NCBI RefSeq assembly: GCF_964355755.1
Contig: NC_092671.1
Span: forward strand, 19,742,001 to 19,806,000
DNA from: Antedon mediterranea
Taxonomy: Eukaryota; Echinodermata; Crinoidea; Comatulida; Antedonidae
Reading direction: 5' to 3'
Length of the DNA: 64,000 bases
The notes below the pieces were generated by a model. That model did no database searches. It saw only the letters and a program-made list of their open reading frames with translations, and had not been told where the DNA came from. A program made the position numbers and the translations under genes. Below, piece after piece: positions 10,267 through 59,636 of the stretch (positions within the stretch are counted from its first letter, which is position 1; each line of letters starts with the position of its first letter).

Positions 10267-13200
10267 CTATTCCTTAATTTTATTTGTTGGGTCTGTCTTT
10301 GATATTTCGAATTCTGAATCTATGAGCGGCAGTTCATGAGAATCGTCAATAAATTCTTGATAGCCTGATCGATCATCGTGCGTATTCCCATTTTCTGTTT
10401 CTTCTGACGCTTTAACTTCTACTTTTTCATCAAGACTCTGCTTAACAAGGTCATCTTCATTGATCCCGACAGCAATGTCGTATGATGGTGGTATGTCACA
10501 GTTGGTAAAGAGGTTACGAGGTTCAGGGGGAATGTAGGCACTGACAGTGCGAATATTACTGCGTCGCGTTCTTGTTCGGCGTCTCTTCACAAAAATCGAT
10601 ACCACCAAATATGTGGCACTAACAAAACATACCATCGACAACATAACTGCAACCACAACTCCAATTAGTACACCGTTACTCATACCTATAGAAAAAAATA
10701 TTAAATTCAACTTAAGTCTTCAGAAGAACATCCGCAAATTAGAAGAGTCGCAGTAAAACAAGATGGTGGTAACCACAATTGTTAGACCTCCCTCCTTGTT
10801 TACGATACGGTATCATTTTCAGTGTTTTAAGCTTTATTGTATGGATATATAATTATAAACTCTTTGATTACAATAAATAGCCTACTCTTTCACCGCTGAA
10901 CAAAATATAATTGTTGAGCGTTAAGAATACAAACCAAAGTCTATATTATTTTGTAAAACACATTTTGCGGTGTTATATCATCATGTTCAATACTCAATTA
11001 GACTATTCAATTAGAAAATTAAAAGTAATGATTTAACATTCAGTATAATGTACTTACGACAATTAGTCTCATCAGATTCATCGGAACAGTCAATGTAGTT
11101 ATCGCAAACAAATTCCTTTGGTATACAATTGGAAACATCGCAACGAAATGCACCTTTACAATTGTCAATTACTATAAATAAATAGATTTTGTATTACATT
11201 TTTGCTCATTTTCGAACTTTGCCAAAATATTCTTTTTTTTTTTTTTTGACTTTCTTACACAGATAATATTTCACGATAATGTTTTCTTTTTAATAAATAA
11301 TGACATACGGTATGTGTTTTCTTTTTAACAAAAAGAAAACACATACCGTATGTTATTATTTATTAGAAAAACACCAGAGGAACAAGGATATTAACTTTGT
11401 CTTTAAATGAATTAAATGACGAAACTATTACTTTTCAACTGTAAATATAATCATAATTATTATAATAACTATAATTTAAAAATAGGAATTATACGGCAGT
11501 TACAGGCAGAGCATCACAAATTGTAACAGAGAATATCATACCATCCTGTACTGTAGTTGTTAAGCACTCTGTTTCATCATACGGGTTTAAGCAATTGGAA
11601 TAACCATCACATTTTATGGAGTTTGGTAAACACATCTTTTTTGAATAACACCAGAAATGATCGTCATCACACTGTTCTTCTGTTTAATATAGCACATAAT
11701 ACCGTATAATTAATGTTTAAGTACAGCTAATAATTACTGCTTCGTTCCCACGCGTAACCTTTCGTAGCCCACGCGTGGGGCATTGTTGAACCTACGATGT
11801 ATTGTCTTTTGATCGTGATCCCACGCGATCCCACGCGCTCCCACGAAGGCCATTGTTTTTTTTATCGCGATTCTAGTAGAGGTATTGTTCTTTGATCGCA
11901 TTCCCACGCGCTCCCACGAGCTCCCACGAAAGGCATTATATTTTGATTGTGATTCTACGAAACGAATTGTTTCTTGATTGCGTTTCCAAATGAGTGCAAT
12001 TACAGCATTATTACCTTGTTGGACGCAAACATTTTGCATCCTAGGATTGTTTAGTGGTTTTACGAAAATCTATAAACAAAATTCGTAGGTGTAGGCCAAC
12101 GTGGTACTCGTTCGGTTATTGTTTATCGGAGCTACGAAGCCTACGAGTGGTGACGCGTGGTAACGCATGGTACTTCGTGAGAACGCGTGGTACTTCGTAG
12201 GAACTGTTTATTGAGGTTACGAATTCCCACGCGTGGCCACGAAGTACCACGCGTTGCCACGAAGTACCACGCGTGGCCACGAAGTACCACGCGTGGCCAC
12301 GAAGTAGCCACGAAGCTAGAACGTGGGTAACGTTGCAGTAGTTTTTAGCTGTACTGTAGTTATCGCAAACAAATTCCTTTGGTATACAATTGGAAACATC
12401 GCAACGAAATGCACCTTTACAATTGTCAATTACTATAAATAAATAGATTTTGTATTACATTTTTGCTCATTTTCGAACTTTGCCAAAATATTTTTTTTTT
12501 TTTAAATTGACTTTCTTACACAGATAATATTTCACAATAATGTTTTCTTTTTAACAAAAAGAAAACACATACCGTATGTCATTATTTATTAAAAAAACAC
12601 CAGAGGAACAAGGATATTAACTTTGTCTTTAAATGAATTAAATGACGAAACTATTACTTTTCAACTGTAAATATAATCATAATTATTATAATAACAATAA
12701 TTTAAAAATAGGAATTATACGGCAGTTACAAGCAGAGCATCACAAGTTGTAACAGAGAATATCATACCATCCTGTACTGTAGTTGTTAAGCACTCTGTTT
12801 CATCATACGGGTTTAAGCAATTGGAATAACCATCACATTTTATGGAGTTTGGTAAACACATCTTTTTTGAATAACACCAGAAATGATCGTCATCACACTG
12901 TTCTTCTGTTTAATATAGCACATAATATACAAATAATGAATGTTTATGAGTGCAATGGTACAAATAATGGCACGAGGTGAATGATGAAAGGTTATATCAA
13001 CGAGGCAAAGCCGAGTTGATATAACCTTTCATCATTCACCAAGTGCCATTATTTGTACCATTACACGAATACAAAACATTCATTATTTGTTTTATATAAC
13101 ATCTAGACGTTTTTTTTTCGTACACAAAAATGTTTCAAAAAGTACTATTTAACGATCGTTGAATAGTGCGTACTATTGCACGCCATGTGACCCACATTCG

Positions 13201-16200
13201 TCCAATCAAATGACAGGAATTTATATAGGTGTTATATAATACCGTATAATTAATGTTTCATTATAATAATGATGTAGTATTTAAAACGTCTGCGAAACTT
13301 AACTGTTAATATTATGTTATGCCATAAAAATAGGACAATCATTAGGCCTAATAGGACAATCATTAGGCCTAATAGGACAATCATTAGGCCTAATAGGACA
13401 ATCATTAGGCCTAATAGGACAATCATTAGGCCTAATAGTCTAGTTTACGAAAATACATGTTACACAGGTATGAAAGTGAAAACAATTTAATTATTGTTTT
13501 TTTATTACTCATTATTATACAGGTTCTATTGTTTTTGAAAATACTATTAATAAATAAGTATGGAAAAAGTATGTAATAATAATCTGCGTGTAAGTCACGA
13601 TGCAATGCATGCACAAGATTGCTGGATACACAAGCAGAGCAATTGTAGATAAATAAATCAGGTTTTAATGGACAGTTTCATAATTGTATGCATTGTACTT
13701 TGTATTCAAAATTATTATTAATTATCAATTTGATGATTTTTTTCTACCATTAAATACCTCAATTTTTACTATTTGTTTAGATTTATTTTTAAATAAATAA
13801 ATGCGATATTTACCTGGTTTACAGTCGCATCCCCATTCATCAGTAGAATCCGTACAATCGGCATTACAATCACAAATCCAATCCTTAGGAATACACCGGT
13901 TACTACAATAATAATCCTGGCTATTGCAAAAAAGTTCACCTGTAAAAAAAGTAACAGATTATCAAGCATCTTGAACGTCTATATTTAGTGAACATCATTA
14001 CAATCGTTACCATAGCTAATTTGAGCGTAGTATGAATATGTTTTGTTTTTAGTCGTGTGGAAGCGACTCTATAGTTCACTATGTCGGTCGGTCGGTCTGT
14101 CGGTCTGTCGGTCTGACGGTCTGTCGGTCTGTCTGTCGGTCCGGTATCACTATGCGTTTTATCGCTTTCTGACCTTATCCAGTTTAATCTAGCTAGGCCT
14201 AAGTCAATTTTTCACAGTATATTCCTTATGGCCAGGAATCGATGTGGTTATGTTTTCACGGTGCGCAATAAAAAATTACGCGGTCTACGCACGATTTAAC
14301 GAAATCACGTTTGTAATCATATCTTCACAACCATGAATCACAATTAAATAAAATTTGGTACTCATAAATTTCAGGGCATAAATCATCCTATGGCAATACA
14401 ATTACGTGCGTAGCGCATGTAACGCATGCGTACGCGCGCTTAAAATTTTCAAAATTTATTTTCGATGAAATAAGAGTACGTTTCAGGAAATTTTAAGCGT
14501 TTACAAAATTGCCATGAGCGCGCATATTTTTGCGCGCGCACTGCACGTTAAATGTTATTGAGCACTCTTTTTGCCCGATTTCGCTTTTCTTGACTTACTT
14601 TTCAACTCGAAATTACGTTATACGAGCACGTCAAAAATGACATGCTACGCACGTGTAAATTAAATATAACTGTTTTTAAACATTTCAACATTTTTAAACA
14701 TGTTCAGTAATTTCGGTCAGTTGGTAGGTTGGTCGGTCGGTCGGTAAACACTAAGCACGCGACTGCAGCCATCTATATGGCCTTGTTTGATAATATAATA
14801 GCATACTATAGAGACGGTATAGTACACACGTTTCGCGTATAGTCCATGTCAATTACGTCAAAGCAATTTATTTACATACATTGTTCTGTTTCTAACTGTA
14901 CAGTACTCAATAATAAAAAAAGTGCTATTTGTTCTATTTAATTAAGTTTGCATGTAAGCTTACTTGGTTCATCGCTGCCATCTCCACAGTTATCGAATCC
15001 ATTATTATAAAGTAAAGAAGATATACAACCTCCATTAGTACATTGAAAGTCACATATATTAGGCCTATACCATGGGTATTCGTCTAAATAAAAAAAAACA
15101 TTAAAATATTGTTCATGTTTGTTTTTTAAGAGCGTCAAACCGTCAAATATTTTTCTTGTTATCTAATAGTGGTATGGATGGAAGTGAAAAGGGGCTGTAG
15201 GCCAATACAATAACTTAAGAAATGGCAATAAAACATTTGACCAGTGTATAGTCTAAAAAAAAAAGGATAGATGGACTTAAGTGTGGTTGGTGGTGATTGT
15301 GTTGGAGGGTTCACATATTGGTGGAAAGAGACAGCAACATTGTTTAATGTCATTTAGGAATGTGCACTCGTACAATAGCAGCCACAAACAACTATTACTT
15401 ACCACTACTGGAGAATAGAGATATTGAAATGATAAATCCTAGATGTTCGTCTTTAGGGTCCCCGTTCAGTTCCAAGTACAAATATGCATAACTATTTTGT
15501 ACTACATATGACTTTTGACTTTCAACTCCACCGCAAAGCTTTTCTTCATTGTTGATATTTAAATAGTTAAAGTCACAATTATTATGCATTCTAAACTCGA
15601 TTATATTCACCAGAATCTGATATCCAAATGGGGAGTAAAATTGGACATTACATTTTGCATAGGGTGGCATATATTTTGTGGATTGTGATTTCATCACAAA
15701 TGTTTCATCCGTGTCTAGATTAAAAGTGGTTGAGCATTCATCTAACATATATCTCATATCTATAAAAAAGAAAAATATAGAATAATGTTAACACTTGTAA
15801 ATCCTACATTCGGTAGGTCCCACCTAAATATTTTTTTTTGTGATTGGCCAAGTATTGGGAATTGTTGCGTTTGGATAAGGCTAATATTTACAAATAAACC
15901 CCTTTCTCATACCTTACTTTCTATACTAATCAACTCCTTTGCCGTTGTTGATATTGGAAAATGGAATAAGAAAGTTTAACTAGTCAAGGTTTCCGTTCTT
16001 AGGATGGCGAAGTTGAAGTTAGGGGAGGGGGATGTTGGTTGGTACGCGTCATAATATCTTGAACTTGGTTGTGTCTAATGTGTTGACATGTACACGCATT
16101 ATAATTACCTCCGCACGTTTAAGCTGATCCGAATCATATTATCCGAGTTACATCCGCGGTAAGTGCGCGTGTAATCAGTTAATTCTCTCGCATACCTCCG

Positions 16201-18049
16201 TGCTACTAACCCCTCACCTCTGATATACCATTATATTAATACGTGTCAACATCCGATGTAACATTTACCTCCGATATGTTTTATGATGTAGCAGAACAGC
16301 GCGTTTCATCGAGGACATATCAAAACCGGTGAACGTTATTTTTACTAACATGGCGATTTTTTTATATATTTTTTCCTTTCGGAGTTAAACAAGGGAGAAG
16401 AGATCTATACAAATTCATATTCGTTTAATATGAGTTGGACTGCAGCACTTGGAATTTGCTTAGAAACCTTTTGAGTGTACTCAACATAATTACAATTATC
16501 ATCAGCTGTCATAAAGATAACTCTATCTAAAAAGTATTAGTCGGTTTGTTCGGTATCTAAATCGTTATACAATCGCCGCCGGGACAATGGTGCACGTTTA
16601 TCATGTTTTATAGACTACGGCCACAATTTACTACCTGATGCCTACTCGAGTGTATTGTTATAATTTATGCAATCAGTGTATGAATCTTATGCCTCGTGTA
16701 TATTATGATCAAATAGTAAAAAATAATACCACCTTAAACTTACTAGTTTCACATCGTTCACCTCCAAACCCATATGGACAGATACATCGGTTTTTAGAGG
16801 TGTCGCAGTAACCCTCATTCATGCATGTAGCTTCATAACAGCTTCCCCGACCTTAAGGTAAAAATGATTTTTCAAAAGACAAGTTAAGTGTCGGTGCTAC
16901 AACATACGTTCCAAGAAAGGAGAAGTTAATGAAACCTAGTTCCATAACTCTTAAATATCTATCCAAATCTTACATTTCTTCTAAACCCCAGATTCGCAAT
17001 GTATGTAATTGGTAAATCGAACATAGCAGTTTGTAGTTGTAATATATCTGAAACGATGATTTATTAAAAGTTATTGAAACCTTTCTATAATTAGAACTAT
17101 CTGTTAAATAATTTTTATTGTGGAGTAGCTATAAACGAATTTGTGAAATTTAGTTTTGATACATATTCCGTCCAGTAGGCCTACCTTGATGATGAGGAAG
17201 TAAAAATACGAATTATTAAATGTTCGCAAAGCGTGAAACGCTCTTTATAACATGTTATTGTTACTATGCATTAGAGAATATGTGTCGAGAATGCATATAA
17301 TAAATCCTCTTTTCAGTAAATGTGACGTTTTGTATTTCTTTATAATATTAGCTGTTGTGTTAACAGTACAGAGCGAATAAAGTTTCACGGGGATTTCCCC
17401 CGCTTTTTAAAGAGCAATAATATTATCTTCCTTAAATTTACAGAGGATAACATCTCCATTAGTTGATGTATCTTTTATTCTTGTTGGTCGTTAAGTCACG
17501 ATGTTTAGGTCAAAAGACTTTGCAAAAAATGTGTTGACTCATCTTATGAGATATGGTGCAGTGTGCCGCATTCAAAAACCGTTTCCTCATAGTGATGTAT
17601 TTATCATAGTTTAGAATTGTATTATTAGCCGTTTTACATACATTTTACTAGACTATTATTATTATTATTGCATGCATATTTTTTACAAATTTAAACATAC
17701 ATAGTATGGTATATTTTTATATAGATGTCGTCCTTCTGCTTCTGGGTTATAAACCAGTCTTTATAACAATCTACGTTATAGTTTATATAATAAATATTAT
17801 TGATAAATATTCAATGTTGTAGACGAAAAACTTTGATCATCGTCCTGGAGAACAATATCTCACAACTTTCATCAAGCTAGTCAACACTAACACAAAAACG
17901 CCTATATTTGTTTTATGAAAAACGAAAACACAACAATTACTAAAATAAATGAATGATGATACAGCATAAATAAAAACAGTAAAATACTTACAGTAATTAA
18001 TAACGCAAAAAAGAAACGTGAAGAGCGCAATGAAAGAACGAGATACCAT
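10267..18049 (-). CDS. receptor A: EGF-CUB-LDLa5 single-pass membrane protein with PPxY tail
   Basis: Nine minus-strand exons: 18049-17992, 16851-16744, 15759-15403, 15083-14964, 13939-13814, 12905-12768, 11679-11542, 11171-11058 and 10685-10267. Every intron is phase 1 and the sum is 1578 nt (525 residues). Order: signal peptide ([15 protein letters not shown]), EGF module (20-55, ending [12 protein letters not shown]), CUB (56-174, four cysteines), LDLa modules (175-386), TM (about 391-415), a KRRRTRTRR stop-transfer run, then a tail with IPPSYD (PPSY 452-455) and an acidic end. LDLa1 has only four cysteines (the third-disulfide pair is missing). LDLa2 has eight. LDLa3 and LDLa4 come from sequence-identical duplicated exons. 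LDLa5 is canonical. PPxY motifs bind WW domains, so NEDD4-type ubiquitin ligation is a plausible partner (inference). Ligand unknown. Skipping either duplicated exon would keep the frame. Confidence 0.85.
11294..11366. repeat. 73-base near-perfect palindrome in receptor A intron
   Basis: The arm containing GACATACGGTATGTG and GTTTTC is mirrored by GAAAAC and CACATACCGTATGTT around a short AACAA centre. The second copy of the duplicated block at about 12550-12590 has only one arm. The difference is exactly the piece between two GTTTTCTTTTTA words, so copy 2 looks like a deletion between short direct repeats, or copy 1 a template-switch gain. Confidence 0.8.
11724..12351. mobile_element. TA-flanked TIR element (mariner/pogo-type MITE) carrying a minisatellite
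   Basis: The left end reads CAGCTAATAATTACTGCTTC. The inverse of the right end reads CAGCTAAAAACTACTGCAAC. Both are flanked by TA (11722-11723 and 12352-12353). Terminal CAG beside a TA target duplication is typical of Tc1/mariner/pogo elements. There is no transposase, so it is non-autonomous. The interior is built of CACGCG/CCACGAAG words. It sits exactly at the junction of the duplicated exon blocks of receptor A. Confidence 0.7.
12225..12312. repeat. 20-bp minisatellite, CCACGCGTGGCCACGAAGTA
   Basis: About four copies of CCACGCGTGGCCACGAAGTA stand in tandem, with degenerate CACGCG words on both sides through the enclosing MITE (11740-12215). CCACGCGTGG is itself a palindrome and carries two CpG sites per unit, unlike the AT-rich surroundings. 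Internal minisatellites are a known feature of some MITEs. Confidence 0.85.
12356..12432 (-). pseudogene. truncated second copy of the receptor A LDLa5 exon
   Basis: From its acceptor (after TATAG, first base 12432) the copy reads as far as [11 protein letters not shown], identical to the intact exon at 11171-11058. It then runs into the TIR element, losing the [11 protein letters not shown] calcium-site half and the donor site. It cannot be spliced as an LDLa exon. The gene model skips it. Confidence 0.85.
12927..13240. mobile_element. palindromic MITE inserted in receptor A (family also at 31.1 and 50.8 kb)
   Basis: Comparing the duplicated blocks gives an empty site: copy 1 reads CACATAAT|ACCGTATAAT at 11700/11701, while copy 2 has 314 extra bases between the same words. 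ATAAT stands at both junctions (12922-12926 and 13236-13240) and is the likely target duplication. The first half (12929-13090) folds on itself: ACAAATAATGAATG opposite CATTCATTATTTGT, with the arms continuing through AAAGGTTATATCAAC. The second half has an inverse pair TATATAACATCTA / TATAGGTGTTATATA. No coding capacity. Confidence 0.82.
13331..13436. repeat. 21-bp minisatellite, five copies
   Basis: Five perfect tandem copies of a 21-base unit that joins AGGACAATC to ATTAGGCCTAAT, lying in a receptor A intron. Perfect units mean recent expansion and probable length polymorphism. Confidence 0.92.
14045..14780. repeat. dispersed repeat bounded by CGGT/CTGT simple repeats
   Basis: The stretch begins with GCGACTCTATAGTTCACTATG and a (CGGT/CTGT)n run (14086-14148), and ends with another CGGT run (14733-14754) then ACTAAGCACGCGACTGCAGC. 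The interior has GTAGCGCATG and GCGCGC words shared, partly inverted, with the repeats near 5.6 and 33.4 kb. It lies in the intron between the LDLa1 and LDLa2 exons of receptor A. Class unknown. Confidence 0.45.
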
Positions 18050-19029: not shown

Positions 19030-19545
19030 CAGTTGAACTTCTGTGAGCGGCCACCTTCTGTAAGCGGCCACCTCCCGTAAGCGGCCACCTCCCGTAAGCG
19101 GCCACCTCCCGTAAGCGGCCGCGGCCCATTACCTGTAGGCCTATATTTGTGTATGGTAAATTACCTCCGGCGGCCACCCGAAAATTTCGTATTGACTTTT
19201 GACTACAAAAATACAATTTTGATACTCATTGTGCTTTTATTTTAGCTTTATTTTCGAAGCTTGTGTGCGAAATCTTGTTGTTTTATTATTTTTAATCATT
19301 CTTGCATATATTATATATCCATTACTTGAAAGTTGAAATAAATACTACTGTAGATAATACCAGTAGGCCTATTTGACGTTTTTTTAATTATAAACAAATA
19401 CAATTAGCTGGAGAATTTAGAGGCCCATTACATTAAGAACACCAAAAAATATCGTGCATATAGCCATAGGTGATTTTGGACTACGATCGGCAAACTCTCG
19501 TAAGCGGGCACCTCCCGTAAGCGGCCACTTTTCCCCAGTCCCAAA
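19030..19545. mobile_element. pogo/Tigger-like terminal repeat fragment with internal 17-bp repeats
   Basis: TA followed by CAGTTGAACTTCTGTGAGCG opens a series of four 17-base repeats around TAAGCGGCCACCTCCCG (19040-19120). Two more units recur at about 19500-19532 in the same orientation. A TA|CAG start and GCGGCCAC words resemble ends of pogo/Tigger elements. The inverse end was not found, so this is a partial element or an amplified terminus. Confidence 0.45.
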
Positions 19546-19632
19546 GCCAACGTTTCACCAATGAAAAATGTCAAGCCAGAGAAAGTTATGGTATAAAATG
19601 AATATAATTTTTTTTTATCCTCTATTTTACAC

Positions 19633-20024
19633 ACTAAAAAATGACCCTGTCACCTCTTACGTATACCTATCCCATGAGATGTAGGGCATGAATAGACCCT
19701 CCTCTTAACGCCTCTCTCGAATTATAAACGACTAAAAAATGACCCTGTCACCTCTTACGTATACCTATCCCATGAGATGTAGGGCATGAATAGACCCTCC
19801 TCTTAACGCCTCTCTCGAATTATAAACGACTAAAAAATGACCCTGTCACCTCTTACGTATACCTATCCCATGAGATGTAGGGCATGAATAGACCCTCCTC
19901 TTAACGCCTCTCTCGAACTATAAACGACTAAAAAATGACCCTGTCACCTCTTACGTATACCTATCCCATGAGATGTAGGGCATGAATAGACCCTCCTCTT
20001 AACGCCTCTCTCAAACTATAAACG
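19633..20024. repeat. 98-bp satellite-like tandem repeat, four copies
   Basis: Copies start at 19633, 19731, 19829 and 19927 with an exact 98-base period, each beginning ACTAAAAAATGACCCTGTC. They differ only at one or two bases (CTCGAATTAT, CTCGAACTAT, CTCAAACTAT). No gene. Confidence 0.95.
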
Positions 20025-20054
20025 ACTCGATGTGTTTATTTTGACAATTCTAAA

Positions 20055-20164
20055 GTTCTGTCTACACGTCACTATCAAAATAGTTGAATATAAATAGTTA
20101 AATATGGTCCATATGGGCACATCACATTTTTGTCACATAAAGCTTGATAGTGTAGATATAGCTT
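20055..20164. mobile_element. short TIR element (family shared with 29.7 kb)
   Basis: TTCTGTCTACACGTCACTATC at the left is mirrored by GATAGTGTAGATATAG at the right. The interior CCATATGGGCACATCACATT matches, inverted, the element at 29672-29829. It is about 110 bases with no coding capacity, a MITE by structure. Confidence 0.6.
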
Positions 20165-21414: not shown

Positions 21415-22044
21415 TCAGAAATAAGAAATGGGAAAGTTTAAATCTTCATAACATGGTGGGGTTGATACCATAGCAACGGCTACGTCATATGATGGCGGTT
21501 GATCGCTAAAGTATACTATTGAAGTTGAACGAACAAATCGAACGTTTCCATGTGATCGATCGCTGAGCACACGATTTGAGTCGCGATGTCTCCTCCTGTG
21601 ATTTTGATGAGTTGGGTTTTTAGATGACAAGTGGGCACAGTACGATGTTATTACTCCAATGATGAGAGTACCGATTACAATGCAGACAACCACATAGAAC
21701 CATGGATCAATTCCTATAACAACAAAACAAATATAAATACAAGTCATATGGGTATAGTCATGCAATGTTCCGTTTATTTTGGTGTACGTCAACTCTATTC
21801 GGTCCACCATCTTCACCAAGACACAATGTGTCCACTGTCCCTCGGACTGTTTTCATAATTACTTCAAAATTGTATTTCTTAATAATTAACGGAATAATAA
21901 TAGTATGTTTATAACAATGTTTACCACATTCAACTTCATCTGAACCATCTCGACAGTGTTGTACTCTATCGCAAACTTGATGCCAATAAATACATTCGAG
22001 TGCGTCTGACTTACATTGAAAGTCTCCTGAAGAACATTGTCCAT
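21415..22044 (-). CDS. receptor B: LDLa-TM-PPxY protein, 5' exons not found
   Basis: Two minus-strand exons: 22044-21925 (one complete six-cysteine LDLa, GDFQCKSDALECIY...CRDGSDEVEC) and 21713-21415 (TM then tail). Both are phase 1 with AG/GT borders and join in frame. The last exon reads GIDPWFYVVVCIVIG through a hydrophobic span of about 22 residues, then a basic His/Arg-rich stretch, then DQPPSYDVAV and STPPCYED: two PPxY motifs. PPSYDVAV is nearly identical to the receptor A motif PPSYDIAV. No signal peptide, EGF or CUB exon was found in the 8 kb upstream, which is full of retrotransposons. The gene may have lost its 5' part, use a distant exon, or be a short LDLRAD-like protein. One weak first-exon candidate (near 22365, MNALHFILFYYS) has the wrong splice phase. 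Confidence 0.7.
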
Positions 22045-23003: not shown

Positions 23004-23817
23004 TAGGCGGAGGTTTTTTTTTTTTTGTCTTTTGTGAGATTCACTCACTTTTATTTCATTCTTTACAATTGTTACAATAATCTATATCAATTTTGTTTCA
23101 GTAGAAAACTATCTCTGCAGCTTAAAGTTTTTTTTGTTTTTCTTATTTTTAGTATTTTACATATATAAAAAGTTAAAGCATTTAAACAATAGACAAAAGT
23201 TATATAAAAGTATACATCACATAATATAGGTTCACAATTGCCATTACAACATCACAAAATAAAATATACTGTAACTCATATAGCACCAGTAAATAAAACT
23301 AGTAAGGTAGAAACCATACTAGAATACTAAGTATTGTGTCGTAATAATATTTTCTCGTGTTTTTAGCCTGTTATTGTTTAACAATTATACATTTTTACAT
23401 TGCTAAAATAATATGTTTTACCTTTTCCCATTTTTTTTATGCTTTCCTCTCTTTTATACACTATATCACATTCCATTCTGAATAGAATTCCTTGTTTAAA
23501 AGATTTCCATGAATTAAAATAACTTTGATTTGTAACATCAGCCAGTATCTTTTGTTTATAAACCGTGAAAGCAGCAAATGTATATATAAAATCAGTAAGA
23601 ATATTTCTTGTTCCAATTACCAGATTTTGAAAAGACATGTTTATATGATTGGTACCTTTTAAAACAATCTCTATTTTTGTCCAAAAACCTTGAATAAATT
23701 TACAAGTAAAAAACATATGCTCCTCATCTCGTACCTCTCCACATCTACCACATATTATATTAGTATCTTTTAGTTTCCAGATAAACAACCTTTTGTTTGT
23801 TGCTAGGCGGAGGTTTT
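23004..23817 (-). mobile_element. 5'-truncated L1-like LINE with 14-bp target duplication
   Basis: The word TAGGCGGAGGTTTT stands on both sides (23004-23017 and 23804-23817), and a poly-T run follows the first copy, i.e. a poly-A tail for a minus-strand insertion. The minus frame 23788-23378 encodes 136 residues with GRCGEVRDEEHMFFTCKF and QGFWTKIEIVL. C-x2-C-x7-H-x4-C followed by W is the zinc-binding C-terminal segment of L1/Tx1-type reverse transcriptases. The frame is open, so the insertion is fairly young. Confidence 0.85.
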
Positions 23818-24279
23818 GTACTCTCGGAGTACCCTATAGTTTTATCTGTATTAAAAAAAAGTCAAATATAGGCTAAGGTTTAACAGCATATTTTAGGTTG
23901 TTTTCTTTTTGTTTTGACCTTATTTACAGTTTTATTTGCAGCACTCTACTTTGACCGTATTGAAATAAATTGTGCTGTCGCACAACTTTATCATTTTCGA
24001 TATTTAATATAGTAGTTAATTCTATACCTAGTTTGTTACATGTACCCTTATTTGAAGGACACGACTGTGGGACGTTCAGAACAAATTTACAGCGTTTTAT
24101 GTGTACATTTTCAATAAATTTATATTTCTCTACCATACAATAATATTATTGGAATGGTTTGTCTATCAGAACGTTAAAGTGTTATTATTATGTTATAATT
24201 ATTTTTATTACAAGGGGAATTAACATTATCAGTTTTGGTAGCCGATATGTACTATTATTTAGAAGGAACAAATACTGTA

Positions 24280-24625
24280 GACCACGTTTATAAATCATGT
24301 GACCACATTTTGTATTTTGTTATTAAATGGTGATATTGAGCCCAATCCTGGACCATCATCTATTGCCAACATTTTCGCAGTCTGAAAAACAAGCTAGATG
24401 TGTACAGCTCGGAGCTCATATCACAATTAATTCAGAAGAATCTGGATATCGTAGCACTGACAGAGATCTGGTTGAATAGTCATGTTTTTGACGCTGAGTT
24501 ATCAATTGCGAATTACACACTATTCCGTGACAGAGATCTTGGGAATCGTGGTGGCGCAATTCACCAGCCTGTTTGGTTAATAACAAACTCAAACGTCATC
24601 GAGTTGATCGGTTGGTTTAATGGTT
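24280..24625 (+). mobile_element. CR1-type LINE, 2A-like peptide and endonuclease start (5' part)
   Basis: A plus-strand frame reads FCILLLN then GDIEPNPGP (24329-24355). That is the D-x-E-x-N-P-G-P 2A motif preceded by the usual hydrophobic run. After a +1 frame change the apurinic-type endonuclease begins: LKNKLDVYSSEL, NLDIVALTEIWLN (the T-E-x-W catalytic block), FRDRDLGNRGG. The next expected block (GDFNLP) appears at about 26410, beyond an oppositely oriented LINE, so the element was split by that insertion. Frameshifts and stops make it inactive. Confidence 0.75.
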
Positions 24626-26275
24626 TTAAATTTATATAGCGCAAAATACAAATAGTCTCTATGTGCTGTTTAGCACAAGTGTGAAAATAAAAATGTTGAT
24701 GTAAAATAAACCACGAAATAGCCTAAGAAAACCGAATAAATTGACCGAGACAAGAGAAAAAAAGTCCGAAAACGGAATCACACATCACCACACTGTTTCA
24801 CTAACTTGTCAAGACAAGCTACTATTTATTCACAAGTGTCATAGTGATGTGAGCATCTGACTGTCCTGCCTAAAAAACAATAAAATGAATAAAATGTATA
24901 TGAAAAAATAATGAATTTACACATTTAAACGAAACAAGTGAGTCTTCAAGTGACCATTGAAGATCGAAATGGACGGAGACTCACGAATCACCAAAGGCAG
25001 AGAGTTTCACAATTTGGGAGCAGCGACCACGAAAGATCGATCCCCACATGACTTCAATCTACACCGTGGATAGTCAAGAATGGTTATGTCAGACGTTGAC
25101 CGGAGGGAACGAGTACAGGTCGCCGAGCGAAACTTGATTAACTCTGAAATATACGATGGGGACACATGATGAATGGATTTGAAAACAAATAAAAGAACCT
25201 TGAAAACAATACGATTTTCAACAGGGAGCCGATGGAGACGACGGAAAAAAGGGGTGATATGTTAAAATTTAGGTTTCCGAGTGACGAGACGGGCAGCAGT
25301 ATTCACTAGTAGTTGAAGTCTTCTAATAGATGTTTGAGGCAATCCATAAAGAACTGCATTACAATAGTACAATCTGGATGTTACTAGGGCATGCACTAGC
25401 TTTAATGTAGCATCCACGTTTAAGAAACGTCTAACTACCCTGATGTTCGGGAGTTGAAAAGAGACTGCTCGGCTAATACTGGTGACATGCCTATTCATGA
25501 ATAAAGCAGAGTCAAATGTTACGCCGACATTACGTACCTCAGACGATGGAATGATATAGGCGTCTCCTACACGAATGGTTTCAATTATGGGCATGTTTGC
25601 ATGACGTTTATGTAAATGACTTCAGTCTTATCCGTGTTACAGCGAAGCATGTTGGAAGACAGCCACGAATGTACATCATCAATACATGCTTCTAGGATGC
25701 GGATTAAGTCAGTGGTATTCTCTGGATTGAAAGAAGTATACAGTTGAGTATCATCAGCGTAAATGTGATACTTGATTGCATGTTTGTGAATGATATCACC
25801 GAGAGGGTGCATGTAAATTAAGAACAAAATTGGCCCCACTTTGAGGGACACCAAAATCTATAGAAACAGGATCGGAGATAGCTGATTCCAATCTAACAGA
25901 CTGTTTTCTCGATGTTATGTAAGAGTTGAACCATGCCAACACTGTACCAGAAAGACCTAAGTCTGAAAGTCGACTTATGAGGATACAATGTTCAATAGTA
26001 TCGAAGGCCGCGGACAAGTCCAGGTATACAGACACTGTACAGTGTTCCTTGTCGAGGGCCTGCAAAATATTGTTATTTACTTTCAGTAGCCTACAGCAGA
26101 TTCCGTGCTGGTGTGCCTTTCTATAGGCTGACTGGTAAGGATCGAATAAATTATTTAGATTTAAAAATTTAACTAAAATTGAACAAACTACCTTCTCGAT
26201 AACTTTAGATACAAAGGCAATGTTAGTGACAGGCCGGTAATTAGCAAAAGTTGGAGAAGGAGCCATCCAAATTTA
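24625..26275 (-). mobile_element. CR1/L2-like LINE 3' half, inserted in the other LINE
   Basis: Minus-strand frames 26266-25796, 25854-25585 and 25594-25262 follow each other with frameshifts. They give a reverse transcriptase: YRPVTNIAFVSKVIEKV, motif A VYLDLSAAFDTI, motif B FGVPQ, motif C IYADDTQLY, then LYYCNAVLYGLP and LQLLVNTAARL at the C-terminus. A 3' UTR runs to the word CGCTATATAAATTTAAAAC near 24625, typical of the 3' end of such elements. The 5' side (endonuclease) is missing: a 5'-truncated copy. It interrupts the plus-strand CR1 element. Confidence 0.82.
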
Positions 26276-26394: not shown

Positions 26395-28350
26395 GTTAAA
26401 GGTTTTTATTTTAGGCGGGTTTAACCTGCCTGAAGTCCAATTGAGATCATCCTTCAGCGCCTTCTAATTATATGGGTGAACATTTAATTGACGTTCTCTT
26501 GGACAGTTATGGCCTTTTACAGTGTAACACGTTTAGATAAGATTTTAGATTTGGTTATTGCTGCTATCAAGGACGTTGTTCCTAAAGTTAGAAAGAGAAG
26601 AGAAGAAACTACCTATGTATTTTTTATAAATAGATACTAAAGTATTGTATGAGAAAGAAAGGTGCTTCAACAAAAATCTACAAATAAAAGTAATTTTAGT
26701 TTTGCTCGACGCTCATTTAAGAACCATTATAAAAGAAAATATAATAAATCCCTTGTAGAACAAATCGGTTCGAATAAAAGGAGTTGGTTAAAATGTAAAC
26801 GCAATGATTATCCTTCAGTTATGTCACGGTGAAATATTTCTGTTGAATCTGACTCTGACAAAGCATCTTTATTTAATGGTGTTTTTTTTCATTCCTTTTT
26901 TAATGATCACTCTGTCCTTTATTTAGTTGATAATATGTCAAAATTATTAGTAGATCGGCATTCTGTAGAATAAGCACTTGGGTAATGTTAATATTTATAA
27001 AGCCATTGGATGATCAAATTAGTAATACTGTTCTTAGAGCAGCCGCATCTCCACTTTAATATCCTCTTTCCAAAATTGTCCAGCGGTCGATCAACTCTGT
27101 CATGGAAATTTGCCAATTTCTTACAAATCCACAAAAATGGCTCAAAAAAGGTAATAGTGTCTCTGTTGCCTACTTTATCGAAATTGTTTGAACGAATTGT
27201 TCCCGATGCGGTTTTTAAACATTTAAGTTCAGTTATTACTTCGGTTCAGCATGATTAATCCTTGGAAGATCGTGTCAGACCAACCTCGCATTGCTTTTTT
27301 CTACAGCATACAATGCTTTGAATAGCAAGAGGCAATGTGATGTCGTCTACGCTGATTTTTCTAGAGCATTTGCATTTGACTCGGACCCTCATTATTTACT
27401 TGTATTTAAGATTTCAAAGTTTGGTTTAAAAGGCAATCTTCTTAAACAGTGTTCAGATTATTTGACTGATAGAAAGCAGAGGATAGTCATCAGTGGAAAC
27501 TGTTCTGAGTGGCTTCCTGTACTTTCTGGGGTTCCGCAGGGTCAATCATTGGCCCCTTGCTTTTTCATTTGTATATTAAATAATTACCTTCCTTCTGTTT
27601 TTAAGTTTTCACCATCACTTATGTTTGCTGATGACCATAAGTTGTTTACAGTAATCTCTTCAACTGACGACGCTCTTCTACTGCAAGAGGATCTGAATTA
27701 TCTGGTGGGATGGGCTGAGACATTGAAACTTTCTTTAAAAATAAGAAAATGTAAATCTTTGTGTATCACCCTGAAGACAAAGACTATTGTAACCAAATAT
27801 AAGTTGAATGATCAGGAATAAGATTGTATTAATTTTCAAAGGGATTTAGGAGTTTTGATTGATAGTAAGTTAAATTTTTGTTTGCATGTTAATTATGTTG
27901 TATCTAAGGAAAATAGAATGCTTGGTTTGTTGTGGAGGAACTTGAGATTTATGAGCAATGGTGGAGCATTAACATCACTGTACCCGTTCAGTCGTGCGCC
28001 CCCACCTAGAATACTGTTAAGTCATTTATAATTCAATTTCTTGTACACAATCTCAGCGTATTTCTAAAGTTCAGAACATATTTATTAGATTCCTTACTCC
28101 TAATTATAATGTTTCTCTTATTTCTTAAAATAGTAGATTTGTTTTTGATATGGTATTTTTATACAACTCTTTCAATTCTGTTTATGATTGTCCTCTTGTT
28201 GCTCTCTTTAAGTTATATATACCAACTCGTACTCGCAGCTTCACGTTCTTTGTGGTCGTGTTGAATGCACAAAACGAGGTATTTTTCAGCGGTTACCTAA
28301 CACATTTAATAGTGTGCTTGTTACTTGTAGTAACAACTTTCTTTTAAATA
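26395..28350 (+). mobile_element. CR1-type LINE, rest of endonuclease and reverse transcriptase (3' part)
   Basis: It opens with a damaged GDFNLP block (GGFNLPEVQ) of the endonuclease. It continues with RT frames 27010-27258 (LPTLSKLFERIV) and 27291-27821: motif A VVYADFSRAFAFD, motif B SGVPQGQSLAP, motif C LMFADDHKLF, then KCKSLCITLK. In-frame stops and a frameshift separate the pieces. Orientation and domain order say it is the second half of the element that begins at 24280. Confidence 0.8.
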
Positions 28351-43130: not shown

Positions 43131-43139
43131 TCACATTTT

Positions 43140-44320: not shown

Positions 44321-44324
44321 CAGG

Positions 44325-45557
44325 TGTTTTTCACGCTGCTGCTCTAGCCAGCTACGTCCCATGAGGACTACTAATTCAGAAGCTAAAGCAAGTAGCAGTT
44401 ATAGAATCTAAGGCCGACAATTTTGCGACTTTGTAAACTCGACTATAATTTATAGATCCCAGCTGATGGACCTAAAAAACGTCTGGGAAACGAGAGTCTA
44501 TGAGGGCTCACGGTTGAACGATTTGGATTCTCGCCCTTTAATTGGTTGACGCGAATCAACAGACTGGGAATAATTGCTCACTTGTACTGCACGTTGTCTC
44601 TAGAGGGTATTCAGTTGCATGTCTACAGGCTGAGGTCACACACACACACATACACTATTTTTAAATGGGCATGTGATTCATAATTAAAGAACTATCTTTG
44701 ATTTGTATGTATTTTTGCGATTAAAGGACATTTTTTAATAATTAATCATAAATATATCTTGAAAGAATTTCATTTAGCTTCGATTTTGTATAGATGACAA
44801 ATTTCGTTTTTGTAAAAGCACAAGTTAACGGAGTACTTACTCGAACGTTTCGATCTCTATCAGAGATCCTTCTCAACTGACTGCGGAGTGTTAATGCAGC
44901 TTGGTCATTCTTGACGTCATCTGTTGATGACGTCGTACGCCTCCGGTTGTATGTTGGAGGTTTACATTGGGGAAACAGGGAGGGCATTACAAACACGAAT
45001 TAATGATCACAAAAAAGATGTTACAACAAACACGGGGGGAGTAATGACTAGGGCCTCCAGAACATCCACATCTTCGATCATACACAAATCTGCCATTACA
45101 GAACATGTCATAAAACACAATCATGTACCGAACTGGGAGGCTACCATCTTAACCAAAGAGCCTAAACGCAAAGACAGACAGATTAGAGAATCATTACATA
45201 TAAGGAGAAATAAAGAGAAGACCATGAACCGGGACACTGGAGCCCACGAACTCTCGCATTTGTACAATGATTTGATAGACACATCACCTGGCCGAGCCCC
45301 GCACAACCTCCAACATACAACCGGAGGCGTATGACGTCATCAACAGATGACGTCAAGAATGACCAAGCTGCATTAACACTCCGCAGTCAGTTGAGAAGGA
45401 TCTCTGATAGAGATCGAAACGTTCGAGTAAGTACTCCGTTAACTTGTGCTTTTACAAAAACAAAATTTGTCATCTATATAAATATATCTGATAAAAAAAG
45501 AACAATGATCAATTTTAAAATGTCGATCAGCGTTTTTTGTAAGAAATATTTCTTGTT
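44325..45557 (-). mobile_element. non-autonomous element R1, copy 2, split by a Penelope-like insertion
   Basis: Read on the minus strand it follows the order of 62776-63500: TTTCTTACAAAAAACGCTG at one end, then (beyond the insertion at 44760-45477) the ACTGAATACCCTC, GAGCCCTCATAGACTC and ATAAATTATAGTCGAG phrases, and GCTAGAGCAGCAGCGTGAAA at the other end. It lies between the two halves of the RTE-like LINE. No transposase found. Confidence 0.6.
44748..45489 (+). mobile_element. truncated Penelope-like element with GIY-YIG endonuclease domain and opposed terminal repeats
   Basis: Frame 44924-45334 encodes the C-terminal GIY-YIG endonuclease: VYIGETGRALQTRINDHKKD, then SAITEHVIKHNHVPNWEAT and RQIRESLHIRRNK. 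VYIGETGR-x-L-x-x-R-I-x-x-H-K is the usual Penelope-like motif. About 170 bases at 45310-45477 reappear inverted at 44760-44950, so two terminal repeats face each other. The 12-base word ATAAATATATCT flanks it (44748-44759 and 45478-45489). The reverse-transcriptase part is missing. Each terminal repeat contains a hairpin GATCTC-TGATA-GAGATC followed by GAAACGTTCGAGTA. It is inserted inside element R1. Confidence 0.85.
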
Positions 45558-45559
45558 TA

Positions 45560-50130: not shown

Positions 50131-50134
50131 AAAT

Positions 50135-51150: not shown

Positions 51151-52470
51151 CAAGAAGAAGCTTTGCTTGAATGAAGTTTGTGGCTTACAATGACTTGTAT
51201 GGCCACTAATCTTTCTTACACCGGAAGGTGAAAACATTCTGTAAATTATTCTAATGATGTTTATGTCTTGTTTACTTTTTCAACTATTATTACATACAAA
51301 TATTTTTGTTAGTATATAAGTGGTTTATTAACGACGTGTTTTTGTAATTCAGATCAGGATGTTTACAATGGTTGATATTCAATTTTGATTTATGTGTCCT
51401 GCTGCCTTAGTGTGATTTCTAGAAAAGGATTCTAGGATGCGCAGATGGTGGTAAGATGGTTGCGTCATTTACAACATATTCAGTACAACAACAATTTTGT
51501 TGGCAATCGTTTGGTATTATTTATTAACTTTGGATTCAAAATAGAATTGGTTAATTTTTAAATCAAACATTTTATGGCGTCAATTTGTCTAAACTGGCGT
51601 AAAATATGTTGCAACTGGAGAAATCTCTGTATCAAACAGTCAGTTGTTACGCGACTTAATACAGTTGTATTGTATTTGTATTATTATTGTCAAGGCTGTT
51701 AAGTGTAATTCCAATTTGAATATTAAAAAAAGATGTCCTTTATATTTCAAAAAATTACAACTATTACTCTAATATTTGCATTAGGTTTATAAATGATACC
51801 GTATGCGTAGTAAATAGGAATAAGGTCAACGTCTTTGTTTGTATGTGACATCAACGTTATACTTTTGGTTACATGTTACTGTATAATATATTTTGAATAT
51901 CTTCCAATTTTTGAAAGCAACGTTGGTTATTGAACTAAAGAAAGACATCTGGTCCAAAGCTAACGTCATTCAGCATTTTAAGATATAAATTGGGGCATTG
52001 GATCTTATTGACAGGAGAGCAATGAAACAATTGAACCATCAATATAGGGTATTGAAGTTAATGAAGCAAATTATTCAACGGTTGTCAAGGCGTGTCCGTT
52101 CAATAGGCTGATGGCATGGGTCAAGTATTACACAGTCTGCTAACTCCAATACACGTCACCTTGGCAATACGTTGCATTGCATTTACATCCATTTCAAATT
52201 GAGATTCAGTATTACTACACCCAAACTCCTACGATAAAGGAACTGAGGCCAGTCACCAATGACCGTATAATTTATTTAGGCATAGGACTATACGAGATTT
52301 ATTTATTCAAAAATAAAATTAAAGAGAACCGAAGTTGTTTCCCGCGCGTAAATTGGCGTTTGCCGAAGTGCTAAAACATTGGTCCTTGCCCCGGAAAGAT
52401 TACATTTAATAAAGGTGTCACAAATGAGGGGCTCTACTGTAGGACTATACAAATACATTTTATTTTATAC
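51151..52470. other. intergenic, no gene recognised
   Basis: Only short frames. The longest (52177-52374, 65 codons) shows no known domain, no compositional signal and no splice context. Confidence 0.45.
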
Positions 52471-52472
52471 GT

Positions 52473-52620
52473 CATCAAACAGCTAGTGATTCGCATCAAA
52501 CAGCTAGTGATTCGCATCAAACAGCTAGTGATTCGCATCAAACAGCTAGTGATTCGCATCAAACAGCTAGTGATTCGCATCAAACAGCTAGTGATTCGCA
52601 TCAAACAGCTAGTGATTCGC
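52473..52620. repeat. 21-bp minisatellite, seven copies
   Basis: Seven perfect tandem units of 21 bases, each CATCAAACAG plus CTAGTGATTCG. The unit end resembles the single ATTCGACAATTACAGG context at 34338, so one flank of a dispersed repeat was amplified here. Confidence 0.93.
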
Positions 52621-52672
52621 CAATTACAGGATTGATAAACTATTTTAAAATAGTTTATCCATCCTGTAATTG
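52621..52672. repeat. 52-base near-perfect palindrome
   Basis: CAATTACAGGATTGATAAAC runs into TATTTT, and the mirror AAAATAGTTTATCCATCC continues to TGTAATTG. The arms of 26 bases differ at one position. It directly adjoins the 21-bp array on one side and, 28 bases away, the SINE-like repeat on the other. Confidence 0.9.
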
Positions 52673-52699
52673 GAAATTAATACAAAAATAAAAACATAC

Positions 52700-54722: not shown

Positions 54723-55494
54723 GCCTATGAATGTAACGAACGTCCCGAAACAATCACCAAGCAGCCACTATGGCCTATGTAATAGGCTATGTATAGATAT
54801 TTCCTTCCATAGAAAAGGAGAGGAGAATTTAAAACAAAGTTAGGGTGAATTTTGTTTCAAAAGAAACTCTCCCTATGATTAGAAAGGGGAGTATTATTAT
54901 ACTTTGTGCTGTATATTGTTTGATCATTTTGTATTTACAGATAATAAAAAATATTGAGCTTAAAAGCTGAATTAATTAATCAATCTTAATTCTAGAAATT
55001 GTCTTGAAATATTTACTTATATTATACGGTACATCAGATAAAGAGTTCATCCGGTTCTCGGTACTGTAGCTGGATTTCTCAAGTATCATTCTTTACTATT
55101 ATTAATTACACTAAAATAATACATACTTTTACAACAGTAGGCTACTTTAACAGTATTAAACTATTACATTATACTACCTAATATTAGGATCTAATAATAC
55201 TTTTAATAATGCCGATGTACTTTTTGAAAAGAAGATTAAATAGATATATTGTATTGAATCGAATTAACAATTTAATTACTAAACGTCTAAGGGTTTTTTT
55301 AAACCACTGCACAGAGTGTAATTTAGAGGTATAAACTGTAATGTAATAGTATTGATGTAGTACTTCTCGATGCGCCCTCTAAAAACGGTTTAAACCAATC
55401 AAATAACCAGACGGATCTACTACGAACTTTCATAACAATAATAAACTTCTCTTCACAAAGAACTTCGTTCACTTACAGTAACCAGTCTACTAGG

Positions 55495-58400
55495 ATGAAG
55501 ACAATCATGTTGAATACTAGATGTTTAAAGCAATCTGCTATATTCATGTTAATTCAGTTATATTTCTTTATCAGCTTCGTATCTTCTAAAGGTAGGCATA
55601 ATTATGTATTAATATTATTTTGTCAAAACATGTTTTATTTTTGCATTTTCAATAGTGAATTTTAATAGCTGTAAAATTATGTATAACTAAGTTAATATAA
55701 TTATTTGCTCGTATTGTACCATGAAATCAAATAATATAGTATAAATTAATCATGATTATTTTTTATGAAACGTTTTCTGAAGGAAAAAAAGAGCTAATGC
55801 ATGTTACTAATAATTATATACACATATATATTAACTGTTAATTGACGATACATTATTGATTCATTTCAAAGGAAAATTTAAATGATTGTAATAAGCGGAT
55901 GTCATTGTCACATGTATTCATTCATGCTACTCAGCAGCTTGCAGACAATTTACGATAAAAATACTCGAATTTCTTGTACTCTTGGCATGCGACATTGAAT
56001 GTGCGGTCCCAGGTGCACTTCAACAAGTGAACACAATTTATAGACTTTCCACACAATAAAAGAATTAGTAATCGTAAGCGATATTTCTTACTATCCTGGG
56101 ACAAAGTGGTTTACCCTCGACGGTCTGTCTACCATACAAATATTGGAATGCTGACATTGAGGTCAATATTAGTCGAATAGTTAGCCCTGACTGGTTCTCA
56201 ATAAAATAAATTGATTAATATAAATACACCACATATAAAAAAACGTGTTTTTTAAATAACTATTTAAAATTATTATTTTTAAATTGTACAGTAATATATA
56301 ATATAGGCCTAATTATTTCCTCCAAAATAGATGTATATAAATAAAAAAACTAGATACAAGCTGAGGAACAAGTTCCTGTTACCTAAAAGGGTTTTGACTG
56401 CACCTTTACTAGAAACCTATTGTATGCAATAAGAACACAAAATACCATACATAGATGATTCACGAATAAGAACACCATTTTAAAACTTTTAAAGATGCAT
56501 TATTGTGACAATCACTACTAGTGTCAGTTGAAATAAAATGTGTGTATTTAATTTATTTCCACCAATTTTTACCTCATTTATTTACACCAGTCTGTGTGGA
56601 TTTTCAGGTACTAAGTATCTCAATCAAATAGGAAATCGTCATGTTTATTACCAAACTAAATCATCACTACTTATCAATTCACAAGAGGACACATTCTACG
56701 CATCTGGTATCAACACTAAAGTAACTATTATTGTGCCTAGTGGACATCAGGTGCGTCTACTAATTGAAGAATTGGTACTGGAATCTGGTTCTGGCAGTCA
56801 ATGCAACGATTTTGTTGAAATATTCGATGGAGCAGACGTCAACTCGAAGACTTTGACGGAGGTCTCAGGATTATGTGGTAACAAACAAGGAATACTTTAC
56901 ACGTCAACGCGAAACATAATCACATTTTTCTTTAGTACTGATGCTAATGTTCAGAATAAAGGTTTTGCAATTCTAGCAACATCAATTTCTACAGGTAATA
57001 ATACTACTGATTTCTTTTAACTTAAATCCAAAAAGGTTTATTTTCTTTTTCTAGTGATCCCTATCTATTCTTTTGATAATTAAGATTTTTTTTTAATATC
57101 GTAGTTTTTGAAATGTACAGAATCTAAAATAAATTCACTGTATTTATTACCAGTATTCAAACATTTTCCATTTAAAATGGATATTCCGATTTATCAGCTC
57201 AAGTCTTAGATTGTAGAGGCGTATATTGTGTTAAATTTGTATTTTATACATAAAATAATGTTCTATTGATGATAAATTCAGATTTGACATACATTATGTG
57301 GGCGCAACATCAACCAGATATATTTCACATTGTAAAACGATGATACATTGATCTTTAACTTAACCTGCTAAACTACCTACCATATTCGTTTATTTTGATT
57401 GCAATAAGAGCAGTCAGTGAACCGTGCTCCGTTAGACATGTAACAATAGACATTGAACATAAATTAGATATTGATGGTGAAAAGCCCTAGCTATATCTTC
57501 ACATTAATGTTATGTTCCCATTTAATATGTTTCTGAAAATACATTCACTGTTATACAATCAAAATTGTTTTAATTGTTAATGTCTTATATATATATCGGT
57601 TTTCAACGAAGGACAAACATTTCTAATCCTCAGGTGAATGCAGTACACAAGAAGAGTTTCAATGTGGCAATGGGGTATGTGTCAATAAATTATTGATTAT
57701 GGATGGACATGACAACTGTGCCGACAACTCTGACGAAATATGTAAGTTGGTATTGATTCTTAAATAATTCACTAATTTACATCAGAAGAAAATATGTGTT
57801 CACATTAATTAATAAAAAGAAACATTTTTATAGATGTGTACGGTACTATTCATTCGTTCGTTCGTTCATTCATTCAATCTTTACTGACTGACTGATTAAC
57901 TCTTGGCCTTTAATTCATATTTATGACAAACTACATGAATTTTGTAAAATTAAGCAATTCAGAATTATAATGCTAAACGGTTAGTTACATCATTATTTTA
58001 AGGTTCCTTCCATCACGAAGCTATAAGAATCTGTTTTAATCAATTACAAAATGTCTTTTTTTCTATTGTACTTTAGTTGCTGCAGTGGGTCATTTATTGT
58101 GCGAAAATGGTCAAACTGTTCCAGATCCCAATATATGTGATGGAAATGATGATTGTGGAGATTATTCTGACGAAACATCATGTGGTAAGTGATTAATGTC
58201 AGTAATTAATATCCTTCCTGACTATGAGACTCTAGAGTAACATTTTAATGTTCATGTAGTTCTACCTTGAAATTATGACATTTTTTCTGTTTTATAGGCC
58301 TATTTTTATGGTTACAACATTATAATGGTGTTATTCAATTTACAAAATCTATGGAAACCTTAACGAGATCACGCGAACATGAAATTATACTTTGTGATGT

Positions 58401-59636
58401 TATCAATCACATTACGCCCTACATAATATCTTCTTAATGCAAAAATATATACATGCCGTTGGTCTAGGTGGGTAAATGAATTAACTTTATTTTACAATAG
58501 ATTGTGTAGATTTACAATATGAGTGTCAAGAAGGTACATGCAAGACTGATGAAGGGAACTTGTGTTTAGGTGTTCCACAATCATTTAGTGATTTTGATAA
58601 TGAATCGTATTCAGGTAAGAACATTGAATAACTTTGGTCAACACATCATACACTAAAATGGTATTGCATCATAAACGCCATAATCCTGTTAAGAAAGCAT
58701 TTAATGAAATGATTATAATTTTATGATTATAATAATAAAATATATATACCTGTGAAATTCAAGGTTATTATGTACCAAAGTGTTAATCAATCATGATTAA
58801 TCGTAAAGTGGCCTATTAAAATATTGACCAATCATATATTAATCTAAAAATGTATAATTTCAGAGATAGGGCTACATTTATCTAAAACAGAGAAAAATGT
58901 TATGAAATCTGGGATGTTTTCTAAAATCAACTATTCGGGTTCGGATCTTCGCTTTATTTTTAAATGCATCTTCACTCGGTTCTTACCTAAGGGTTGAATC
59001 CATATTTTAGTCATCATTAATATGTCTACACAGTTTCACAAAGTATTGCGATTGGCCATTTCACTGCATGTGCTTTCTATTAACATTTTGGCGAATTCCT
59101 GTCAACAAATAACATTTCTTTATAAATAAACGATCTCTAAGTACAAAATAAAACGTAAAGTAATTGTCGTACTTGCTAACTCGACACATTACCGATGGTT
59201 GTTTACTTTAATTTATCATCTGTTCCGTACCAATGCTAATATATACGTAATTTTAATATTATCTGCAGATTTTCCGTACGTCTATGGTGGAATAGCTCTA
59301 ATTTTATTTCTAATGATAAGCTGCCCACTGTCATTTTTTATGAAACAAAGGAAAGCGAAATCGGATGACGAAATAACAGGTCCAAGGAGAGTGGTTGCCT
59401 CTGTGCGTTGCTCATTCTCTGGATGTCTACCTCAGCGACGAGATCAACAACATCCTCCAAACTACTTCGATATCATTAATGCTGAAGAGACACCACCGTC
59501 ATATGATTCTGCAATGTCTTCAGGTGTCTATATACCTCCACCATCGTACGAAGCAATTGTAGGTCTTTGTCATCACATTTGCCGCGATAATAACATAGAA
59601 ATGTTAAATCTTAATACACGATTTACCTACATTTAG
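55495..59636 (+). CDS. receptor D: CUB-LDLa3 single-pass membrane protein with three PPxY motifs
   Basis: Six plus-strand exons: 55495-55591, 56608-56994, 57634-57741, 58077-58184, 58501-58614 and 59269-59636. All introns are phase 1 with AG/GT borders (1182 nt, 393 residues). A signal peptide (hydrophobic AIFMLIQLYFFISFVSS) precedes CUB (33-161), three LDLa-type modules (162-197, 198-233, 234-271), TM (278-296), a KQRKAK stop, and a tail with PPNY (334-337), PPSY (347-350) and PPSY (362-365). The CUB has only the second cysteine pair (QCNDFVEIFDG, LCGN). LDLa1 lacks cysteines 4 and 6, LDLa2 lacks 1 and 3, and LDLa3 lacks 5 and 6. The tail motif TPPSYDSAM is kin to receptors A and B. WW-domain ubiquitin ligases are the expected tail partners, and the ligand is unknown. 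AATAAA at 59882-59887 is a candidate end signal. Confidence 0.88.

Follow-up and report, generated by a model that had tools for sequence, protein, structure and literature searches.

A 64,000-nucleotide stretch of the Antedon mediterranea genome (C2:19742001-19806000, hereafter the window) holds three genes, A, B and D, in each of which an open frame runs from a transmembrane (TM) segment into a tail with PPxY words; a related gene, E, lies 5.4 kb past the window. Gene A, on the minus strand, gives an open model of eight exons and 479 residues, reading in order signal peptide, EGF, CUB-like module, LDLa repeats, TM segment and PPxY tail. Gene D, on the plus strand, gives an open model of six exons and 393 residues (signal peptide, CUB, three LDLa, TM segment and three PPxY), and gene E (C2:19811428-19813207, minus strand) one of four exons and 279 residues (signal peptide, CUB, LDLa, TM segment and a tail ending in PPPVYAP). 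Gene B, as seen, consists of one LDLa exon and one TM/tail exon. The words lie 3′ of the membrane segment at 10480 in A, at 21487 and 21448 in B, and at 59454, 59493 and 59538 in D, so that B has two and D three, as the original prediction, a note made from the sequence of the window, had stated. Hydrophobic signal and TM segments are visible by eye in A, D and E, and in all four genes PPxY follows the TM segment and basic residues, a predicted topology that would place it on the cytosolic side.

The same prediction had described modules on phase-1 exons, and all internal exons of the A and D models are indeed phase 1, as are the joins of D and E. Its length of 393 residues for D follows from splicing, and its 525 residues for A are obtained when a second, identical 138-bp copy of the third LDLa exon is added to the 479-residue model. 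It had also described the cluster as one of CUB/LDLa receptors. Pfam searches bore this out for D (CUB, E 2e-9; Ldl_recept_a, E 3.8e-11) and for the LDLa repeats of A (Ldl_recept_a in four stretches, E 3.2e-17); the CUB-like exon of A has no Pfam match, and no CUB was found for B. Over all four genes, CUB passes the Pfam cut-off in D and E (E 3.4e-12 in E) and is reached in A by a leave-one-out profile and colinearity only, and LDLa passes it in A, B and D and falls short in E (22.6 bits versus 24.1). Against solved structures, the CUB-LDLa stretch of D has cubilin, enteropeptidase and NETO2 among its matches. The features inside the window are collected in Table 1.

Table 1. Exons of genes A, B and D and partial duplicates of A exons (positions in the window)
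Feature	Position	Strand	Evidence or remark
A exon 1, signal peptide	17992..18049	-	Spliced model, phase-1 donor; hydrophobic N-terminus by eye
A EGF-like exon	16744..16851	-	Seven EGF-type or related Pfam models, E 0.0012-0.031, all under cut-off
A CUB-like exon	15403..15759	-	Leave-one-out hidden Markov model, E 4.4e-5; colinear with D
A LDLa 1, without Cys4 and Cys6	14964..15083	-	Spliced model
A LDLa 2	13814..13939	-	Exon alone: Pfam LDLa 22.5 bits versus cut-off 24.1
A LDLa 3, first copy	12768..12905	-	Pfam LDLa E 3.3e-6; 138 bp identical to 11542-11679
A LDLa 3, second copy	11542..11679	-	Repeat family D2
Cut-off duplicate of A LDLa 4 exon: first 78 bases, then CACGCGTGG-rich short-unit repeat	12355..12432	-	
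A LDLa 4	11058..11171	-	Spliced model
A last exon: TM and cytoplasmic tail, PPSYDIAV	10267..10685	-	
Broken duplicate, part of A last exon	7486..7713	-	94.3% identity to 10470-10697
B LDLa exon, six cysteines intact	21925..22044	-	Pfam E 3.3e-8
B last exon: TM and tail, PPSYDVAV and PPCYEDL	21415..21713	-	Open frame
D exon 1, signal peptide	55495..55591	+	By eye, spliced model
D CUB exon, without first CUB cysteine pair	56608..56994	+	Pfam CUB E 3.6e-10
D LDLa 1, without Cys4 and Cys6	57634..57741	+	Spliced model
D LDLa 2, without Cys1 and Cys3	58077..58184	+	Spliced model
D LDLa-like 3, degenerate	58501..58614	+	Spliced model
D last exon: TM and tail, PPNY, PPSYDSAM, PPSYEAI	59269..59636	+	

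Judged by their ectodomains, A, D and E are paralogues. In pairwise BLASTP, D and E match at 1e-21 across CUB and the first LDLa repeat (LDLa1), and A and D at 4e-15 across CUB, LDLa1 and LDLa2 in colinear order, with LDLa giving much of the latter score. LDLa1, the repeat next to CUB, lacks Cys4 and Cys6 in all three proteins; in E, its Cys1 is encoded at the end of the CUB exon. LDLa cysteines pair 1-3, 2-5 and 4-6, and the common loss thus removes exactly one disulfide. Such paired losses, in LDLa1 of the three proteins and in the second repeat of D, are the pattern expected where selection acts on a domain that folds; in the third repeat of D, the cysteines lost do not form a pair. The first CUB cysteine pair is likewise missing in D and E and kept in A and in a relative on C8. 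Profile tests with one member left out, run over 4,319 open reading frames (ORFs) from the window and the fetched loci, gave a similar picture: an LDLa1 profile built from any two of A, D and E had the third as its best non-trained match (3/3 tests), ahead of a C8 LDLa each time by 4.4, 3.0 and 11.5 bits. A CUB profile built without A, from D, E and the C8 gene, reached the CUB-like exon of A with E 4.4e-5 among these ORFs, as two partial stretches (rank 12 of 34 rows). Across the window and its flanks, a further CUB profile raised only the CUB exons of A, D and E above noise; its training set comprised A, D, E and the C8 gene, which makes their own matches to it circular.

Searches of the 354-Mb assembly (18 contigs) connected the same genes. 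The best match of the D CUB outside D is the CUB of E, 6 kb past the window end (4.0e-7, among the best 105 of 156 candidates), and that of the E CUB is D (9.0e-8, with 32/32 candidates scored). E was thus picked up through its CUB and not its tail, yet carries PPxY, a word present in 11.7% of the proteins of a human survey (PMC8509885). The family, as far as sequence similarity goes, extends beyond the cluster: a C8 gene at 10.4835-10.4855 Mb, with CUB, a six-cysteine LDLa, a TM segment and a short tail, is also related and has no PPxY. The genome-wide CUB search scored the best 150 of 521 candidates and says nothing on absence. PPxY is missing from all three C8 tails inspected, namely those of this gene, of its CUB/LDLa/TM neighbour and of a third gene's tail exon. 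The cluster is set apart from the C8 gene by its common cysteine losses, its location and its PPxY tails. At C8:10483-10491 kb, the two adjacent CUB/LDLa/TM genes lie on opposite strands, and weak CUB- and LDLa-like ORFs stand upstream of the third tail exon.

The combination of parts has precedents. The claim that no described family has them was too strong: Lrp10 has CUB, LDLa, a TM segment and cytoplasmic PPxY, and suppresses IL7R post-translationally, with the role of its PPxY given as still open in the account at PMC11315911; only the EGF of A is extra. Like Lrp10, A, D and E are predicted type I proteins with CUB and LDLa, and a PPxY tail is also found in A, B, D and E. Lrp3, Lrp10 and Lrp12, however, have two CUBs interspersed with LDLa, whereas the A, D and E models have one CUB each, and EGF occurs only in A. 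CULD (Drosophila CG17352), a protein required in endocytic trafficking, resembles gene E in having one CUB, one LDLa and one TM segment (PMC4732287); the word "PPxY" is absent from the main text of that paper, an absence that does not bear on the CULD tail itself. NETO1, NETO2, SOL-2 and LEV-10 share CUB, LDLa and one TM segment with A, D and E but differ in CUB number, with two in NETO and SOL-2 and five in LEV-10, and NETO1 and NETO2 are described as having PDZ-binding ends (PMC9083331). LDLRAD3 (LRAD3) combines LDLa repeats, a TM segment and two PPxY and activates Itch and Nedd4 (PMC5331069; PMC11150648), the activation of Itch through its PPxY motifs being cited in PMC11315911. It resembles the cluster in LDLa, TM segment and PPxY, and differs in having three LDLa and no CUB, where A, D and E have CUB and B shows one LDLa. 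As for LDLRAD2, the available part of PMC13105053 yields expression and nothing on domains. A literature search on the literal terms CUB, LDLa and PPxY was empty, which says little, since Lrp10 is in print in other words. Relative to these published proteins, the new points are the short single-CUB version, the local cluster and the disulfide-trimmed LDLa1, in a believable but fairly ordinary local family of cell-surface receptor genes.

As the best explanation of the whole, which we hold to be modestly probable, A, D and E are paralogous type I CUB/LDLa receptors whose traffic is set by PPxY and NEDD4-type ligases, and B is probably a relative that is incomplete or damaged at its 5′ end. The CUB and LDLa modules would bind an extracellular ligand or, in cis, a partner membrane protein; the cytoplasmic PPxY words would bind the WW domains of NEDD4-type HECT ligases; and these ligases would ubiquitinate the receptor or its partner, controlling endocytosis, sorting and turnover. 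Candidate ligases are encoded in the genome: WW exons with HECT exons behind them on the same strand were found at C8:7122336-7131174 (four WW) and, with two WW each, at C1:16.526-16.536 Mb and C11:5.669-5.683 Mb. Together with the LRAD3 and Lrp10 precedents, these loci suggest receptors or co-receptors that may be sorted by NEDD4-type ligases. The observations extend to the exon anatomy, the A-D-E paralogy, the placement of the PPxY words and the WW-HECT loci; that A, D and E are expressed, spliced as modelled, able to bind ligand and NEDD4, and trafficked under ubiquitin control is what we infer. Putative NEDD4-type control can reasonably be supposed for all of A, B, D and E. If this holds, the compact CUB/LDLa/PPxY cluster helps to ask how traffic control by PY motifs arises and persists while tails diverge.

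Several results weigh against this explanation. The CUB-like exon of A is matched by no Pfam model at E<=0.5 when searched alone, nor at E<=0.1 within the whole protein, and its predicted structures were useless, with predicted local distance difference test (pLDDT) scores of 37.6 alone and 45.4 when aligned with D. Similarly, phmmer against the PDB returned 15 sequences for it at E<=10, the best at 0.57 and none named a CUB protein, and Foldseek with the D-aligned model returned 57 matches at E<=10 and 0 at E<=0.001. Of the three LDLa1 margins given above, those of 4.4 and 3.0 bits are small. CUB alone does not separate the cluster: the CUB of E matches the C8 gene (9.9e-8) about as well as it matches D (9.0e-8), and a profile of D and E scores the C8 CUB at 57.9 bits. 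Gene B has no visible 5′ half. Once the PPxY words are masked, similarity among the A, B and D tails does not rise above that of shuffled sequences (A-B p 0.417, A-D 0.677, B-D 0.557; pairwise alignment versus 500 shuffles, with and without masking). Finally, A, B and D had been chosen by their tails, and E is the sole independent test of the link between PPxY and the cluster.

The tails bear directly on a plausible alternative that falls short of probable, namely that these are ordinary CUB/LDLa receptors in which PPxY arose separately as a short linear motif, silent on descent, with NEDD4 recruitment that may vary from protein to protein. The original prediction had used PPSYDxA tails as the mark of a local receptor family. 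Their clustering does exceed chance: a degenerate DNA pattern for PPxYDxA-like words had 15 matches in the 354-Mb assembly, where the reversed control had 3; of the 15, 4 lie in the window (one being the broken copy of the A tail), and the chance of 3/14 falling inside 49 kb is ~2e-5, for a pattern picked after the window had been seen. All 11 matches outside the window were inspected, and a TM-like segment (19-residue mean hydropathy >2) stands upstream in the same frame in one. With A and D paralogous, such clustering is expected if their ancestor had a PPxY tail.

Descent cannot be read from the words themselves, however. A gene at C8:24.839-24.842 Mb has a TM exon and a tail with PPSYDVAV, 10 residues ahead of the stop and identical to B over all eight residues, and the upstream same-strand exons, presumably joined to it, are SRCR (E 6.1e-29 and 2.7e-14); with its SRCR ectodomain, this gene shares only the motif. 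Unmasked, its tail scores 48 against A, 50 against B and 41 against D, as high as the 40-49 of A, B and D among themselves; masked, p is 0.705, 0.479 and 0.631 for these three and 0.040 for E, both tails being proline-rich. With masked tails at shuffle level and PPSYDVAV on an SRCR-type gene, PPSYDxA is a recurring docking word and not proof of descent, and we rejected the tails as proof of one gene family; the local family stands for A, D and E by their ectodomains, and the membership of B is unproven. More generally, a common PPSYDxA word in one genome is no mark of shared descent.

Independent gain also fits gene E, the word of which differs (PPVYAP) and the tail of which is unlike those of A and B both masked (p 0.743 and 0.776) and unmasked (0.51 and 0.44). 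On the other hand, E, found by CUB, has PPxY while the three C8 tails have none, the masked D-E comparison is borderline (p 0.058), and fast-evolving tails could lose all likeness but the constrained word. A frame reading PPTYNRRR...TKFVIY is nearly repeated on opposite strands at 44949 (-) and 45307 (+), ~360 bp apart; it is probably an inverted-repeat element and a false PPxY lead.

It is rather unlikely that part of the cluster is decaying, with B and the tail copied from A as remnants of pseudogenes, and with the doubling of LDLa exons in A due to recent duplication in place or to an artefact of the assembly. The broken fourth tail announced by the original prediction is real: the 228-bp copy aligns to 10470-10697 with 94.3% identity over 230 columns, covers the start of the last exon of A including its acceptor, and meets stops on read-through, so that its frame is interrupted. 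The identity of the two LDLa 3 copies over 138 bp and the cut-off LDLa 4 copy fit the same picture. For B, no CUB was found by profile over ORFs of at least 25 residues across the window plus 40 kb of flanking sequence (10 kb left, 30 kb right), no phase-1 signal exon was found on the same strand in the stretch scanned from 22.05 to 31.7 kb, and a reverse-transcriptase ORF lies upstream. Yet B retains six cysteines in its LDLa and an open frame in its last exon, and the A and D models are open from end to end.

We consider it unlikely that the proteins are mainly adaptors that activate NEDD4-type ligases or deliver them to other cargo, without being turned over themselves. Commissureless and NDFIP are adaptors of this kind for NEDD4-type ligases, and the TM/tail region of A has a weak likeness to Pfam Commissureless (E 0.0055 and 0.019), but at 17.4 and 15.6 bits it is far below the cut-off of 27. 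The multiple PPxY of B and D and the activation of Itch and Nedd4 by LRAD3 (PMC5331069) also speak for adaptors, whereas the modular ectodomains suggest ligand binding. A last and very improbable idea is that of a lineage-specific, locally duplicating set in which LDLa1, without Cys4 and Cys6 in each CUB-bearing protein of the cluster, as a looser calcium site freeing ligand in endosomes, and PPxY sorting through NEDD4-type ligases would form one evolved unit, the tails drifting except for the docking word.

Other features were observed around the cluster. Retrotransposon-type ORFs span 23381-26272 (-), with RVT_1 over the Pfam cut-off at 25799-26272 (-) and zf-RVT just under it at 23381-23833 (-), and an ORF at 27255-27818 (+) resembles reverse transcriptase by eye. 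Between B and D, cysteine-rich EGF/laminin-EGF-like exons at 31763-37399 (+) form a separate gene (sub-threshold Pfam EGF) with no PPxY on the plus strand over that interval. Elsewhere on the same chromosome, tandem cubilin-like CUB exons lie at C2:20384-20484 kb on the minus strand. Repeats in the window comprise a 98-bp-period array (19535-20122), two identical 131-bp units (7871-8132) and an HQTASDS-repeat ORF (52443-52688).

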